Shown: piece after piece, positions 19,464 to 29,291 of the stretch
Position numbering within the stretch: position 1 is the stretch's first letter
Layout: each line of letters opens with the position of its first letter
DNA from: Candidatus Pacearchaeota archaeon
GTDB taxonomy: Archaea > Nanobdellota > Nanobdellia > Pacearchaeales > GW2011-AR1
Assembly (NCBI GenBank): GCA_018304325.1
Contig: JAGVWM010000015.1
Span: forward strand, 1 to 32,226
DNA length: 32,226 nucleotides
Reading direction: 5' to 3'
Notes under the pieces: model-generated
Database searches by the model: none
Told to the model about the DNA's origin: nothing
What the model saw: the letters and a program-made list of their open reading frames with translations, nothing else
Translations under genes and position numbers: made by a program

Positions 19464-22400
19464 ATGGAAGTTGATTTTATACCTTTAAGCTACGAAGATT
19501 TTGATTTTCAAGGTAAGAATTACATTAAAATAATTGGAAAAACTAGAGATAATAAAAGAATATGTTTAATTGATTCATGTGATGTATTTTTCTGGGCAAT
19601 ATTAAAAGATTCAGTTTCAGAAAAAAAACTAAAAGAATTACATAATAAAATAGAAAAAATTAAAGTTGAAAATGAATCTAGAGTATCTAAAGTAATAAAA
19701 ACAGAAATCAAAGACAAAAACTTCTTAGGAAACAAAGTCAAAGCAATTAAAATATTTATAACAAATCATAAAGATGCTGATAAGTTTTCAGAAAAAATTA
19801 AAGAAAAAGAAATTAAAGCAATAAGAGAAATAGATTTGAATTATATAACAAGATATATTTTAGAAAAAAAATTAATTCCTCTGACTTGGCATTCAATCAA
19901 AGGAAATGTAATAACAAATATAGATGATTTTGGAGGTTTAATAGATTCTTTAGATGTTGATTTAGTAATCAAAGTTGATAAAATATCTGAAACTAAAACT
20001 CAACATAATTTTATACCGAAAGTTTTAGCTATTGACATAGAAACTAAAGAATTTGAAATTGGTAAAGGTGAAATATTAATGATTTCATTAGTTTCTGAAG
20101 GAATAAAAAAAGTTCTAACAACTAAAAAAATTCCAAATTCTCCAAGTTTTGTAGAAATATATAAAGATGAAGAAGAAATGATAGAGTCATTCATAAAACA
20201 TACTAAAAAAATATCTCCAGATATAATTACAGGATATTTTTCAGACGGTTTTGATTTTCCTTATCTAAAAGCAAGAGCTGAAAAAAATAAAATTAAATTA
20301 ACTTTAGGTTTAGATAATTCTGTTTTAAAATTTTCAGGAGGTCAAAATCCAAGAGGAAAAATATCTGGAATTGTTCATGTAGATTTATTAAAATTCATAA
20401 GTGTTGCTTATTCTCAATATCTCCAATCTGAAACACTTTCATTAGGTGAAGTATCAAAAGAGTTATTAGGAGATAAAAAAATAGACCATGAATTTAAACC
20501 AACTGAAAATATGTCTAACGAAGATTGGAAAAAATTTTTTGAATATAATCTCCAAGATTCAATTTTAACATATAATTTATTTAATAAAACTTGGAATGAT
20601 ATGGCTGAATTTTGTAGAATTACACAAGAACCTTTATTTAATGTAACAAGAGATGGGATGTCATCACAAGTTGATAATTATATAATTCACAACTTAGAAA
20701 AATATAATGAGATTATTGAAGAAAAGCCAAGACATGAAGAGATAGGAAAAAGAAGACTAAGAGAAAAATATGAAGGGGCATTTGTATTGCAACCTATACC
20801 AAAATTATATGAAAATATAGCAATGTTTGATTTCACATCATATTGGCCAAGCATTATAGCCACATTTAATCTATCAAGATCTACATATCTGGGTGAGAAA
20901 AAACCAGGAAAAAGTGATTTCTTAGAAGTAGATATAGGAAACAAAAAATATTACTTCTCTAAAAATAAAGGGTTTTTCCCTGAAATGTTGGAAGAAATAA
21001 TTAAAAAAAGAAAGCAATATAAAGAAGACTATAAAAAATTACAAAATAATTTAGTTAAAGCAAGATCAAATGCTTTCAAACTATTAGCAAATGCCTCATA
21101 TGGTTACCAAGGATTTTTTGGAGCAAGATATTATTGTCCTGAAGCTTCTGCTTCAGCAACATCTATTTCAAGAGATTATATTAAAAAAGTGATTAATGAT
21201 TCTGAAAAATCAGGGTTTAAAGTTATCTACTCAGATAGTGTTGATGGGAAGACTAAAGTAATAGTTAAGAAAAATGGGATAATTAATGAAGAATTTATTG
21301 AAAGTTTATTTCAAAAAGAAGATAGTAAAAATTTGCTTGGGAAAGAGTATGATTATAAGAGAGATATAGAAGTTCTAACCTTAAATAAAAATGGAAGATC
21401 TATTTTCAAACCAATTAATTATATTATGAGGCATAAATGCAATAAGATAATGTATAGAGTTCATTTTACTAATAATTGGTATATTGACGTTACTGAAGAT
21501 CATTCTCTAATTGGATATGAAAGAATAAAAAATAACAAACTAAAAAAACTGTCTGATAGACTTATTGAAGTAAAGCCTACTGAAATAAAGAAAAAACTAA
21601 ATTCTATAGTTTGTTTGAAAACAATACCATCTGAATTTCTAAGAAGTAAAGATTACCCCAAAGAAGTTTATGAATTTGCAGGATATTTTATAGGAGATGG
21701 AAGCTTTATGAGGAATAAATCACATACAAAAAATAATAAAGATTATTACTTGAGATTATCTTTAGGTAAAGATAGTTCTGAAGTTTTTGATAAGTTAATA
21801 ACACCTTTAATAAAAAATGGCTTTATAAAAAATTACTGGTGGAGTAAATCAAGAGAAGGAGATTTAGTAGTAAATGGATTAAAATTAATAAATATTATCT
21901 CAAAAGAATTTAGAAGTATTAATGGGAAAAAAATAATTCCGGATTGGTTATTTCATGAAAATGAGAGAAATATTGCCTCGTTTTTAAGAGGTCTATTTTC
22001 AGCAGATGGCTGTGTAATGGTAAGGAACAATGCTCCTGTAATAAAATATACTTCTATTTATGAAGAATATATTGATAATGTAAGGAAATTATTATATAAA
22101 ATTGGAGTTTCTCACTCAGTTTTTAAAGAAAATACAATAAATAAATATAAAGGTTATTCAAGAGGAAGCTATTCAAAGAATATAATTTTGAAGGATAGAA
22201 GACAATTTATTAAAAAAGTTGGCTTTTTACTTGAGCGTAAAAATAAATTAATGAACATAAAAACAAATTCAAGCAAGACAAAAAATATTAAAGATTTTGA
22301 GTTTGATCTTCAGAGTGTTAAGGAAATTAAACTAATTGATGCTCCAGAATATGTCTACGACTTGGAAGTTGATGAAACTCATTGCTTCTTTGCAAACTAT

Positions 22401-23102
22401 GTATTAGCACATAATACAGATTCTATTGCCTTAGAAATGAATAAAAAATCAAAAACTCAGGCACTAGAATTCCTAGGAAGTATTAATAAAAAATTGCCAG
22501 GGATTATGGAATTAGAATTAGAAGATTTTTATAAAAGAGGTATCTGGGTTACAACTAGGGGTGGGAAGATTGGAGCAAAGAAAAAATATGCCTTAATAAA
22601 TGAAAAAGGTAAACTAAAAATTAGAGGTTTTGAAACAGTGAGGAGAGACTGGTGTAATTTAGCACGTGAACTTCAAAATAAAGTTTTGGAAAAAATACTT
22701 AATGAGGGAAATGAAAAATCTGCTTTGGTTTATACAAAGGAAGTAATAAATAAAATTAAAGATCGTAAAGTAAACAAAGGAAGCATAATGATAAAAACAC
22801 AGCTTAAAAAATCCCTTTCTGACTATAAAGCTGTAACTCCTCACGTGACAATTGCAAGGAAAATGTTAGCTAAAGGAATGCCTGTAAATGCCGGAATGCT
22901 GGTTAAATATTATATAGCAGAATCAAGTGATAAAAAAGCTTTGACTAGAGATAGAGCTGTTTTTCCAGATGAGAATAAAAATTATGATATTGACTATTAT
23001 TTGAGCAAACAAATATTACCTGCTGTTGAAAATATCTTCCAAGTATTTGGACTTGATATGTCAGACATCATAAAAGGAACAAAACAAAAAACCTTGTTTT
23101 GA
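19464..23102 (+). CDS. polB: Family B DNA polymerase precursor containing an intein
   Basis: Exo I LAIDIETKE, Exo II GYFSDGFDFPYL, Exo III YNLQDSILTY; motif A FDFTSYWPSII; motif B KLLANASYGY; motif C YSD|TDS split by intein; C-terminal KQKTLF. Confidence 0.95.
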   Translation: MEVDFIPLSYEDFDFQGKNYIKIIGKTRDNKRICLIDSCDVFFWAILKDSVSEKKLKELHNKIEKIKVENESRVSKVIKTEIKDKNFLGNKVKAIKIFITNHKDADKFSEKIKEKEIKAIREIDLNYITRYILEKKLIPLTWHSIKGNVITNIDDFGGLIDSLDVDLVIKVDKISETKTQHNFIPKVLAIDIETKEFEIGKGEILMISLVSEGIKKVLTTKKIPNSPSFVEIYKDEEEMIESFIKHTKKISPDIITGYFSDGFDFPYLKARAEKNKIKLTLGLDNSVLKFSGGQNPRGKISGIVHVDLLKFISVAYSQYLQSETLSLGEVSKELLGDKKIDHEFKPTENMSNEDWKKFFEYNLQDSILTYNLFNKTWNDMAEFCRITQEPLFNVTRDGMSSQVDNYIIHNLEKYNEIIEEKPRHEEIGKRRLREKYEGAFVLQPIPKLYENIAMFDFTSYWPSIIATFNLSRSTYLGEKKPGKSDFLEVDIGNKKYYFSKNKGFFPEMLEEIIKKRKQYKEDYKKLQNNLVKARSNAFKLLANASYGYQGFFGARYYCPEASASATSISRDYIKKVINDSEKSGFKVIYSDSVDGKTKVIVKKNGIINEEFIESLFQKEDSKNLLGKEYDYKRDIEVLTLNKNGRSIFKPINYIMRHKCNKIMYRVHFTNNWYIDVTEDHSLIGYERIKNNKLKKLSDRLIEVKPTEIKKKLNSIVCLKTIPSEFLRSKDYPKEVYEFAGYFIGDGSFMRNKSHTKNNKDYYLRLSLGKDSSEVFDKLITPLIKNGFIKNYWWSKSREGDLVVNGLKLINIISKEFRSINGKKIIPDWLFHENERNIASFLRGLFSADGCVMVRNNAPVIKYTSIYEEYIDNVRKLLYKIGVSHSVFKENTINKYKGYSRGSYSKNIILKDRRQFIKKVGFLLERKNKLMNIKTNSSKTKNIKDFEFDLQSVKEIKLIDAPEYVYDLEVDETHCFFANYVLAHNTDSIALEMNKKSKTQALEFLGSINKKLPGIMELELEDFYKRGIWVTTRGGKIGAKKKYALINEKGKLKIRGFETVRRDWCNLARELQNKVLEKILNEGNEKSALVYTKEVINKIKDRKVNKGSIMIKTQLKKSLSDYKAVTPHVTIARKMLAKGMPVNAGMLVKYYIAESSDKKALTRDRAVFPDENKNYDIDYYLSKQILPAVENIFQVFGLDMSDIIKGTKQKTLF
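21237..22415 (+). mobile_element. 393-aa intein with LAGLIDADG homing endonuclease, inserted in PolB motif C
   Basis: Starts Ser1 SVDGKTKVIVKKNG after YSD; block-B-like VTEDHSLI; endonuclease motifs EFAGYFIGDGSF and FLRGLFSADGCV; ends VLAHN followed by extein TDS. Confidence 0.93.
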
Positions 23103-23913: not shown

Positions 23914-23938
23914 TAAGGCAGAAAGTTTTAAATATTAA

Positions 23939-23952
23939 TTATACATGTATAA
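23939..23952. promoter_or_regulatory. Palindromic operator-like site upstream of vapB-type gene
   Basis: Perfect 14-bp palindrome TTATACATGTATAA, 3 nt before ATG at 23956. Confidence 0.6.
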
Positions 23953-23955
23953 CTT

Positions 23956-24201
23956 ATGGAAAAAATTAGTACTAAAGTTAAGAAATGGGGAAATTCATTT
24001 GGAGTAGTTATTCCTAAAAATATAGTGAATACTGAACAATTAAAAGAGGGATCTGATATTACTATAATTGTCCAATCAGAAAATAAAACAACTGCTGGAG
24101 ATATTTTTAGGCTAGCTAAAAAACTTAATTTGACAAAACCAAAAAAAACAACAAAAGAACTATTGGATGAAGTTGATAAAGAACTTTGGGATGAGGATTG
24201 A
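23956..24201 (+). CDS. AbrB/SpoVT-type antitoxin (VapB-like)
   Basis: STKVKKWGNSFGVVIPKNIV...LKEGSDITIIVQ. Confidence 0.88.
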   Translation: MEKISTKVKKWGNSFGVVIPKNIVNTEQLKEGSDITIIVQSENKTTAGDIFRLAKKLNLTKPKKTTKELLDEVDKELWDED

Positions 24202-24563
24202 TGAAATATTTTTTTGATACATATGCTCTTGTAGAAATTATTAATCAAAATCAGAGTTACATCAAATTTGCAGATGAGATTATTATAACAACTAGCTTGA
24301 ATGTTTCTGAGTTATATTATTATTTATTAACTAATTATAATCGACAGACTGCTGATTACTGGATAAAAAACCTTAATTTGCAATTTTTTGATATAACTCT
24401 TGGAGTATCTGTTGAATCAGCTAGATTTAGGTATAAATATAAAAAGATGAAATTATCTTATGCAGATTGTATTGGATATATACTTTCATTGAGAAATAAT
24501 CTTAAGTTTCTTACAGGGGATAGACAATTTAAAAACATGAAAAATGTTGAATTTGTAAATTAA
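24201..24563 (+). CDS. PIN-domain toxin (VapC-like)
   Basis: KYFFDTYALVEII, LNVSELYYYLL, LSYADCIGYILSLRNNLKFLTGDRQF; overlaps the antitoxin stop. Confidence 0.88.
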   Translation: MKYFFDTYALVEIINQNQSYIKFADEIIITTSLNVSELYYYLLTNYNRQTADYWIKNLNLQFFDITLGVSVESARFRYKYKKMKLSYADCIGYILSLRNNLKFLTGDRQFKNMKNVEFVN

Positions 24564-24564
24564 G

Positions 24565-24703
24565 ATTATGTCAAGATTCTTGATAAAATCACATCTCGAA
24601 AGATGTGGTTAAATCTTGAGCATTCAAAAGTCCTAAACAAACCACACTTTAAAAAGTGTGGTAAAACTCAAGGACTTTTGAATTTACAACGCCATAACAT
24701 AAT
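24565..24703. ncRNA. Nested inverted-repeat (branched stem) structure; candidate structured RNA or regulatory element
   Basis: Outer ATTATGT/ACATAAT; arm 1 TCAAGATT/AATCTTGA enclosing CACATCT-CGAA-AGATGTG; arm 2 ATTCAAAAGTCCT/AGGACTTTTGAAT enclosing CCACACTT-TAAA-AAGTGTGG. Confidence 0.55.
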
Positions 24704-24732
24704 TTTTAAACAAGGTTCTTTTTTAACAAATT

Positions 24733-26709
24733 ATGGGATTTGAAAAAGAAGTTAATTTCAAGGAAAAACAGCTTAGGTTTAATCCTGACGGCAGTATTAG
24801 TCTTCCTGAAAATATCAAGAAAGATTTATTTTTGAGGAAAGGGAGGGGATCTGATATATGGCCAAGTGATGAACAAGATGATGAGGTTCATAATCTAAAT
24901 GACAATGTCCAAGAATTTAACCTTTACAGCAATGGAAAAAAGCTAAAACCTTTGATTTTTTCAAACAATAAAACTCAGGGAGAAGTTGTTAATGAGGTTA
25001 TTTCCCATATAATTAATGGGCAGAAAGTTATTTTTATTAAGGGTGTTTGTGGTACGGGAAAAAGTGCTATTGCATTGAATATAGCTAAAAAATTAGGAAG
25101 AGCAAGCATTGTTGTTCCTGGCAAAAGTCTGCAAAAACAATATATGGAAGACTACTCAAGAGAAAAGTATGTGCTTAAAGATGACCATAAGAAGCTTAAA
25201 ATTAAAGTCATAACTGGAAGAGAAAATCACAGATGTTTGTTTTTCTCCGGTAATGCAAATAGTTCTGATTTACCCTGCAAAATAGAAATAAAAGAAGCAA
25301 ATTACGGAAAAATTAAAGAATATCTTAAAGAAAACCCGAGAGTTAAAGATGATCTTGAGCTGAAAAATGTCAGAAGAATCTCGATTGCTCCTGTTTGTCC
25401 TTATTGGTCTCCAGCAGTTCCTGCGGATATTGAGCTTAATCTGAAAGCTGATAAAAAAATCTATAATGGTGTCGGGGGGAAATACACTATTTACAGCAGA
25501 AAATCCGGTTGCACTTATTACGAGCAATTTAACTCTTATTTAAACAATGAAGTTATTGTCTTTAATTCTGCAAAGTATAAAATTGAAATGGCTATGAATA
25601 GAAAACCTAAAACAGAAGTAGATATTATAGATGAAGCAGATGAATTTTTAGACAGTTTTTCAAATTCTAGGAAAATAAATTTGAACAGGCTTTTAGGTTC
25701 ATTGAATAATTTTTTTAGCGAAGATAAACATAATGAATTTATAATAAAAAAAATAACAGAAATAACCATGCAGTTAATTAAAAATACAGATTTTAATGAT
25801 AAGATATTTCACCTGAAAGAAACTTTGATTTATCCGTTATTTAGGTATTTAATTGAAAACCCAAATACAATAGATGAAGCAGATGATGAAAATTATATTA
25901 ATTCTGTTTATGAATCTGCAGTTGATTTTGAAGACCTTTTTGATGAAACCTATGTTTTGTTTAAAAAAGAAGAAAGAGGGTTAGTTGCCGAAGTGATTAC
26001 AACCAATCTTGCAAAAAGATTTTCAGAATTATTGGACAAAGTTGAAGCTTTAGTTTTAATGTCAGGCACAATTCATTCTGAAGCTATTTTGAAAAATGTT
26101 TTTGGAATAAATGATTTTGTTAGTGTAGATGCAGAAACTGTAAATCAGGGAGAAGTTAAGCTATTTAAAATTGGAAAAGAAGTTGACTGCAAATATGAGA
26201 ATTTTTCCCAAGGTAGAGTAACTAGGGAAAATTATCTCAAGGTTTTTGAAGAAATTGTTGAAAAAGCTCCAAGGCCTAGTTTAATACATGTAAATGCTTT
26301 TGAGGATTTACCAAGTGAAAGGGAAAAAGAACTTTTTGGATTAAAATTTCTTGCTACTAGAGAAAAGTTTGCGCATTTTCACGGAGATGAAATTGAGAAA
26401 TTTAAAAATAAGGAAACAGATGTTTTGTTTACAACTAAATGTGCAAGAGGAGTTGATTTTCCAGATGAACAATGCAGAAGTATTATTTTTACAAAGTATC
26501 CTAATCCAAATGCAAGAGACATTTTTTGGAAAATTTTAGCTAAAACTCACCAAGGATATTACTGGGATTTTTATAAAGACAAGGCAAAAAGAGAGTTTCT
26601 ACAGAAAATTTACAGGGGAGTAAGAAGTAAAAATGATTATGTTTATGTTTCGTCTCCTGATTTGAGAGTTTTGGAAGCTGTTGAAAATAATTTTTTACCG
26701 AAAAATTAG
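24733..26709 (+). CDS. XPD/DinG-like superfamily 2 DNA helicase with probable Fe-S cluster
   Basis: Walker A GVCGTGKSAIA, DEAD box IIDEADEFLD, four spaced Cys (HRCLF, LPCKIE, APVCPYW, SGCTYYEQ), LMSGTIHSE, C-terminal RGVDFPDEQCRSIIFTKYPNPNARD. Confidence 0.88.
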   Translation: MGFEKEVNFKEKQLRFNPDGSISLPENIKKDLFLRKGRGSDIWPSDEQDDEVHNLNDNVQEFNLYSNGKKLKPLIFSNNKTQGEVVNEVISHIINGQKVIFIKGVCGTGKSAIALNIAKKLGRASIVVPGKSLQKQYMEDYSREKYVLKDDHKKLKIKVITGRENHRCLFFSGNANSSDLPCKIEIKEANYGKIKEYLKENPRVKDDLELKNVRRISIAPVCPYWSPAVPADIELNLKADKKIYNGVGGKYTIYSRKSGCTYYEQFNSYLNNEVIVFNSAKYKIEMAMNRKPKTEVDIIDEADEFLDSFSNSRKINLNRLLGSLNNFFSEDKHNEFIIKKITEITMQLIKNTDFNDKIFHLKETLIYPLFRYLIENPNTIDEADDENYINSVYESAVDFEDLFDETYVLFKKEERGLVAEVITTNLAKRFSELLDKVEALVLMSGTIHSEAILKNVFGINDFVSVDAETVNQGEVKLFKIGKEVDCKYENFSQGRVTRENYLKVFEEIVEKAPRPSLIHVNAFEDLPSEREKELFGLKFLATREKFAHFHGDEIEKFKNKETDVLFTTKCARGVDFPDEQCRSIIFTKYPNPNARDIFWKILAKTHQGYYWDFYKDKAKREFLQKIYRGVRSKNDYVYVSSPDLRVLEAVENNFLPKN

Positions 26710-27435: not shown

Positions 27436-27451
27436 ATGTATAATTATACAT
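27436..27451. promoter_or_regulatory. Palindromic operator-like site overlapping vapB-type start codon
   Basis: Perfect 16-bp palindrome ATGTATAATTATACAT; ATG of next gene begins at 27450. Confidence 0.6.
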
Positions 27452-27656
27452 GAAAGTTCAAACTGTTTTAAGGAAATGGGGAAATTCAATAGGAGTGGTT
27501 ATTCCTAAAGAGATTATTGAGAAAGAAAAATTAAGAGAAGGAGAAGAAGTATTTATTATAATTGAAAGTAAGAATGATTTAAAGGAAGTATTTGGGTCTT
27601 TGAAAGATTGGAAAATTAACACTCAAAAATTGAAAGATGAATTGAGGAAGGAATGA
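27450..27656 (+). CDS. AbrB/SpoVT-type antitoxin (second VapB-like)
   Basis: KVQTVLRKWGNSIGVVIPKEIIEKEKLREGEEVFIII, paralogous to 23956-24201. Confidence 0.88.
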   Translation: MKVQTVLRKWGNSIGVVIPKEIIEKEKLREGEEVFIIIESKNDLKEVFGSLKDWKINTQKLKDELRKE

Positions 27657-28019
27657 AGATAGGTTATTTTGCTGATACTTATGCACTAATTGAAATAATT
27701 AAGGGGGATAAGAATTATCAAAAATTTCTTAATAAATCTTTATTTACAAGTATTTTTAATTTATATGAATTATATTATAGTTTATTACGCGATTATAATG
27801 GAATTCAAGCTAAACAATTCTTTTTTATTTTAAAAAAATTTGATTAAATATAGTGATAATTCAATTTTTTTAGCTTCAAAATTTAAGCTTGATAAACATA
27901 AAAGAGGGATTTCTTATACAGATGCTTTAGGTTATTCTATAGCTTCTGAAAATAATCTTAAATTTCTTACAGGAGATAAAGAATTTAAGAACTTAAATAA
28001 TGTTGAATTTGTCAAGTGA
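27653..28019 (+). pseudogene. PIN-domain toxin (VapC-like) interrupted by frameshift at A7 run
   Basis: Frame 1 ends FFILKKFD*; +1 frame continues NLIKYSDNSIFLASKFKLDKHKRGISYTDALGYSIASENNLKFLTGDKEFKNLNNVEFVK*, aligned by eye with the intact VapC at 24201-24563. Confidence 0.85.
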
Positions 28020-29247: not shown

Positions 29248-29291
29248 GAATTTAAGAACTTAAATAATGTAGAATTTGTCAAGTGAAGAAT
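29248..29291 (+). repeat. Right 44-bp direct repeat (copy of vapC 3' end)
   Basis: gaatttaagaacttaaataatgtagaatttgtcaagtgaagaat. Confidence 0.95.

Follow-up and report, generated by a model that had tools for sequence, protein, structure and literature searches.

A multicopy, PATE-like mobile element with two hairpin arms inserts behind TTAT in Pacearchaeota

The DNA between a vapC-like gene and a helicase gene in the window (the whole stretch of 32,226 nucleotides analysed, from a Candidatus Pacearchaeota archaeon) holds one copy of a short non-coding element that is mobile and multicopy, has exact ends, is specific for TTAT, leaves its target unduplicated and keeps its structure by compensatory change. 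The element is PATE-like and not a member of IS200/IS605; PATEs are the palindrome-associated transposable elements of the haloarchaeon Haloquadratum walsbyi (PMC3119063). It is probably a copy of a non-autonomous element of the PATE type, mobilized in single-stranded form by an IS200/IS605-like (Y1/HUH) transposase supplied in trans, where the enzyme, the single-strand intermediate and a guide role for the motif GCATCC are what we infer.

The copy in the window and its neighbours

The features of the locus are as follows.

23956 to 24563, + strand: vapB-like (MazE/AbrB-fold antitoxin) and vapC-like (PIN) genes (Pfam PF04014, 3e-9; PF01850, 1e-9), directly upstream and outside the element
24566 to 24569, + strand: insertion target TTAT, at the left junction
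24570 to 24683, + strand: mobile element, 114 bp here, from the G that follows TTAT to GAAT (most copies end in TGAT)
24571 to 24619, + strand: arm 1, the left-end arm, with stem TCAAGATT (24571-24578) / AATCTTGA (24612-24619)
24590 to 24607, + strand: arm 1 hairpin CACATCT-CGAA-AGATGTG, with CACATCT at 24590-24596 and AGATGTG at 24601-24607
24620 to 24625, + strand: junction GCATTC between the arms (GCATCC in most copies)
24622 to 24683, + strand: arm 2, the right-end arm, with stem ATTCAAAAGTCCT (24622-24634) / AGGACTTTTGAAT (24671-24683), 13 of 13 paired
24641 to 24662, + strand: arm 2 hairpin ACCACACTTT-AA-AAAGTGTGGT, with ACCACACTTT at 24641-24650 and AAAGTGTGGT at 24653-24662
24565 to 24571 and 24697 to 24703, + strand: ATTATGT and ACATAAT, an outermost stem proposed earlier, of which ACATAAT is host flank, outside the element
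24733 to 26709, + strand: helicase gene (Helicase_C_2 / ResIII), the downstream neighbour

An earlier note, made from the sequence of this locus, had reported five perfect complementarities, too many for chance, in a nested and branched structure. All five were located in the window sequence, and the predicted RNA minimum free energy was −47.4 kcal/mol against −19.8 ± 3.0 for shuffled sequence (z −9.2, 0 of 200 shuffles). The element alone, folded with DNA parameters, gave −28.4 against −8.6 ± 2.4 (z −8.3, 0 of 200 shuffles). The two arms with their inner hairpins held, as did an alternative fold within arm 1, where TCAAGATTCTTGA can also pair with itself. The 7-bp outer stem did not: it was found in one of 133 other copies and is therefore not part of the conserved structure, being a fortuitous pairing of the insertion target with host sequence outside the element. 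The match of the window copy to the covariance model described below, 24566-24683, scored 115.7 bits (E 6e-21).

Arm 2 includes an unpaired AAACAAA, which is conserved. The CAT of the junction can pair with the ATG of the left junction, and ATC or ATTC with GAT or GAAT at the right end; in the window the right end is GAAT, matched by ATTC in the stem. The C and the T of CATC were invariant in 52 non-redundant copies. The element contains no ORF and cannot itself encode a Y1 HUH TnpA.

The suggestion that the structure might be a leader of the helicase gene was not supported by comparison with three genomes of the same genus (G001, G004 and G006), in which the helicase, or its start, lies directly behind the upstream methyltransferase, with neither vapBC nor the element; the element is thus not conserved as part of this gene. 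The vapBC pair and the element together (window 23914-24732) form an island absent from these three relatives. Another vapC, on contig C7 of the same genome, has a copy of the element immediately behind it. The window also holds a second vapBC (27450-28018, vapC frameshifted) and a short vapC 3'-end remnant (29249-29282), both resembling the pair that precedes the element, and no element follows either of them. Carriage of the element by toxin-antitoxin genes, for which the window vapBC, the C7 vapC and a mazF at L107 were considered, was rejected. The flanks of 137 other copies contained no VapBC homologue and two weak MazF matches only, so the association with vapBC reflects local chance or joint inheritance. 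Further upstream, window 19464-23102 encodes a family B DNA polymerase interrupted by an in-frame intein that has a LAGLIDADG domain.

Copies, ends and insertion target

A genome-wide search for further copies, suggested in the earlier note, found the element to be multicopy in its own genome. BLAST gave 16 matches on eight contigs besides that of the window, and 13 covariance-model matches place the element at no fewer than 13 positions; the copies were analysed in sequence stretches around the matches. Contigs C30 and C19 terminate within copies, as repeats break assemblies. The archaeon BMS3Abin17 (G028) yielded 35 copies of 97–100% identity. In an order-level survey with the covariance model 55 of 200 genomes were positive, and a pattern search across 84,980 species genomes picked out 39 stretches, 38 of them labelled Pacearchaeota, Nanoarchaeota or Archaeon BMS3Abin17; the remaining one, from Ruminococcus, was judged a chance match. 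Viral contigs, phages and plasmids were also searched and gave no match. Among 371 genomes drawn across the phylum, matches outside the order were few and divergent, yet they kept the full framework of TTATG, stem, AAAAC, hairpin with TTTA, stem, GCATCCTAAAAATC, a longer second stem and GATTTTTATGAT, which indicates that the family is class-wide. Across all copies the length ranged from 80 to 180 bp. Two copies in one genome (G149; L206 901-1078 and L208 901-1069) carry further hairpins nested within the second hairpin's loop.

The ends were read from 36 distinct copies in BMS3Abin17. All 36 start with TTATG and end with TTTTTGAT; their flanks are unrelated, T-rich at positions −2 and −3 on the left, and the target is not repeated. 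Among 101 copies from 18 further genomes, 77 start with TTATG and 98 end with TGAT. Terminal inverted repeats were absent from both sets (36 and 101 copies), and target duplication from the 36 recent BMS3Abin17 copies. When the flanks in BMS3Abin17 were joined with exactly four bases kept, nine interrupted genes were restored, with ORFs of at least 40 codons on each side of the join; three or five bases failed. The restored genes include trpD, a GNAT gene, a LigT-like gene and an IS200 tnpA. The Pfam domains Y1_Tnp, Glycos_transf_3 (anthranilate phosphoribosyltransferase), GNAT and HEPN run across the join, and that of LigT/2-5 RNA ligase extends up to it. An older set of 94 copies gave a weaker excess, with 22 ORFs for four bases against 15 and 14 for three and five, as decay would give. 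Restoration by four bases defines the unit as ∼115 bp, lying behind TTAT.

These ends bear on the proposal in the earlier note that the element is MITE-like. That description was apt in so far as the element is mobile, palindromic and non-coding and occurs in many copies. A classical MITE, moved by a DDE transposase acting on terminal inverted repeats, would likewise be short, non-coding and multicopy with highly identical copies, but TTATG and TTTTTGAT are not inverted repeats, the recent copies lack a target duplication and exactly four left bases restore the ORFs. The element is for these reasons not a classical MITE, and a DDE origin is highly improbable. Several of the interrupted genes are intact otherwise, as would be expected if they were still functional and the element were an intervening sequence removed from RNA, whether a self-splicing or a BHB-type intron. 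In several cases, however, including trpD and the GNAT gene (strand −), the element is antisense to the gene, so that no single RNA structure could be spliced; this explanation can hardly be credited.

Some insertions involve other mobile DNA. Copies were found within IS200 tnpA genes (L119, L166 and L167), and the loci L234 and L277 show one element inserted directly at the TGAT end of an apparent second element, and two elements lying 33 bp apart.

Covariation of the paired arms

An RNAalifold alignment of ten copies from the same genome contained 15 pairs with double changes. A covariance model (A2) built on 17 distinct copies was 93% paired, with 23 of 33 pairs compensated (0 of 500 shuffles), and was then calibrated. 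An alignment of 110 matches, fitted to the model and with nine rows that are reverse-strand or weak extra matches (101 copies otherwise), was 96% paired and showed compensatory changes at all 33 pairs, in 847 double-change cells (0 of 500 shuffles); slid controls for this alignment were 32–47% paired. The compensated pairs comprised 15 of 15 in helices 1 and 2 (arm 1) and 18 of 18 in helices 3 and 4 (arm 2). Stem halves were also exchanged between copies, a test independent of the fitted alignment. For stem 1, cognate halves gave −12.2 kcal/mol and swapped halves −4.6; for stem 2 the values were −10.4 and −6.0 (0 of 20,000 permutations in either case). The earlier note had looked to pairing broken without compensation as a sign against the structure; the opposite was found, compensation being nearly universal.

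Deep conservation of secondary structure with compensatory change is likewise a property of RNA families, and a structured non-coding RNA, like a cis-regulatory leader of the downstream helicase, had to be considered. Judged by position, however, copies lie in both orientations, between and within unrelated genes, and the three relatives have no element before the helicase. An Rfam search gave no match at the gathering score, and chance-level matches only below it. G-T pairs numbered 37 of ∼1590. A frequency of ∼2% is low for RNA; it fits pairing maintained as DNA and, read without a control comparison, suggests that the stems are kept paired at that level. An RNA or leader function is therefore very unlikely, and the earlier suggestion of a structured non-coding RNA is not supported by the positions of the copies.

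The transposase and relationship to known systems

Insertion next to a tetranucleotide without duplication, by an element with hairpin ends, suggests the mechanism of IS200/IS605 (Y1 HUH) elements, which transpose as single strands 3' of a tetra- or pentanucleotide, have hairpin ends and cause no duplication (PMC7290912, PMC3119063). Mobilization in trans by a Y1 transposase thus appears most likely. The element consists of a left-end and a right-end arm only, and in each arm a stem encloses an internal loop and a terminal hairpin. Both arms would fold in single-stranded DNA, such as arises during replication, and would be recognized by a Y1 HUH transposase of IS200/IS605 type acting in trans. 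Cuts would be made after TTAT at the left and after TGAT at the right, the constant GCATCC between the arms serving as a guide by pairing with the ATG of the left cut site and the GAT of the right one. The excised single-stranded circle would then be re-inserted 3' of another TTAT, leaving the target unduplicated.

Y1_Tnp genes in the genome of the window are truncated and at contig ends. BMS3Abin17 gave eight Y1_Tnp matches, with IS200 TnpA proteins of three types, and among 21 further high-copy genomes 14 had the domain; several carriers of the element gave no Y1_Tnp match. Also against the proposal, no autonomous IS with the ends of the element was found among ∼60 Y1_Tnp loci from 43 genomes, examined with the covariance model and by reading the ends; a search for a TnpB-carrying parent gave none, and split left and right ends were absent from 1.04 Mb of collected loci. 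An IS200 of 'type C' (contigs C1 and C5 of the same genome) was rejected as a parent: the left arm is alike, but the target and the right end differ. Y1_Tnp was present in 10 of 10 amplified genomes and in three of eight others, which is only a hint that recent amplification tracks its presence, as G247 and G076 contradict it.

A link to IS200 was seen in the arm 1 motif AGAAA-hairpin(TTTA)-GATGAA. In the 1.04 Mb of loci it occurred 34 times against 0.7 in shuffled sequence, having been noticed before it was counted; by hand assignment from the list, 17 occurrences fall within elements, 11 at the left ends of IS200 and six elsewhere. The resident IS200 insert differently, with the left junction TTA|GCAAG, and end in GATGTCA(C).

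A site-specific recombination element, resembling an integron attC or mobilized by a recombinase of the tyrosine, serine or IS110 type, would also leave no target duplication. The attC sites are folded imperfect palindromes, and in a transposase search that took in Y1_Tnp and TnpB several carrier genomes lacked a Y1_Tnp match, including G247 (98% complete, with two very similar copies). However, the target is only four bases and many sites are used, copies are single and inside genes with no cassette arrays, and the ends lack the attC GTT core, the motif that is shared being with IS200 left ends. Such an origin is unlikely.

The closest parallel is to PATEs. Four of the five features in their definition (PMC3119063) were found. 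Like PATEs, the element is too short for a transposase, lacks inverted terminal repeats, has palindromes near its ends and causes no target duplication; homogeneous and heterogeneous subfamilies and insertions into other mobile elements are also common to both. As to the fifth feature, palindromes tied to an IS605-type transposon, the left-end motif is held in common with IS200, and no IS with the same ends was found, whereas the palindromes of PATEs match IS605-type transposons of the same organism. The element differs further in being folded end to end, with two dissimilar arms whose stems diverge widely yet stay paired.

Insertion 3' of a tetranucleotide, the lack of target duplication and hairpin ends are shared with IS200/IS605 elements such as IS608 and ISDra2, and the left arm has the motif of IS200 left ends in the same archaea. 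Unlike these, the element has neither tnpA nor tnpB, and its target is TTAT rather than the TTA-G context seen for resident IS200. One central GCATCC might suffice for both ends, where IS200/IS605 elements have a guide 5' of each hairpin; the left-arm guide would sit 3' of the stem, as opposed to 5' in IS608. REP/BIME repeats moved by RAYT transposases (PMC2817692) are similar in being high-copy and palindromic and in their link to a Y1 transposase; the element differs in also entering coding genes, in its exact ends at TTAT and in its fixed two-arm unit. No RAYT-like partner was identified for it.

No published description of mobile non-coding elements in Pacearchaeota or their class was found in the papers searched, and such elements seem to be undescribed so far. 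We tentatively raise the possibility, itself doubtful, of a lineage of single-stranded-DNA transposons, spread across the class, that have neither a gene nor an autonomous parent. In such a lineage the whole length would be recognition structure, one central GCATCC would guide both cuts, stems could diverge freely if paired, and the enzyme would read shape and a few loop bases.

Over a quarter of the order's sampled genomes carry the family, which disrupts both genes and assemblies. Its short loop and end motifs stayed constant as the stems went through compensatory changes by the hundred, and in this sense the family is a natural mutagenesis experiment on the requirements of an IS200/IS605-type transposase. 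It also allows selection on pairing at the DNA and RNA levels, and the persistence of gene-less elements in very small genomes, to be tested. At five IS200 right ends from several genomes (L170, L159, L174, L178 and L172) the hairpin loops hold extra small hairpins, which recall the small repeats that target such palindromes in Haloquadratum.
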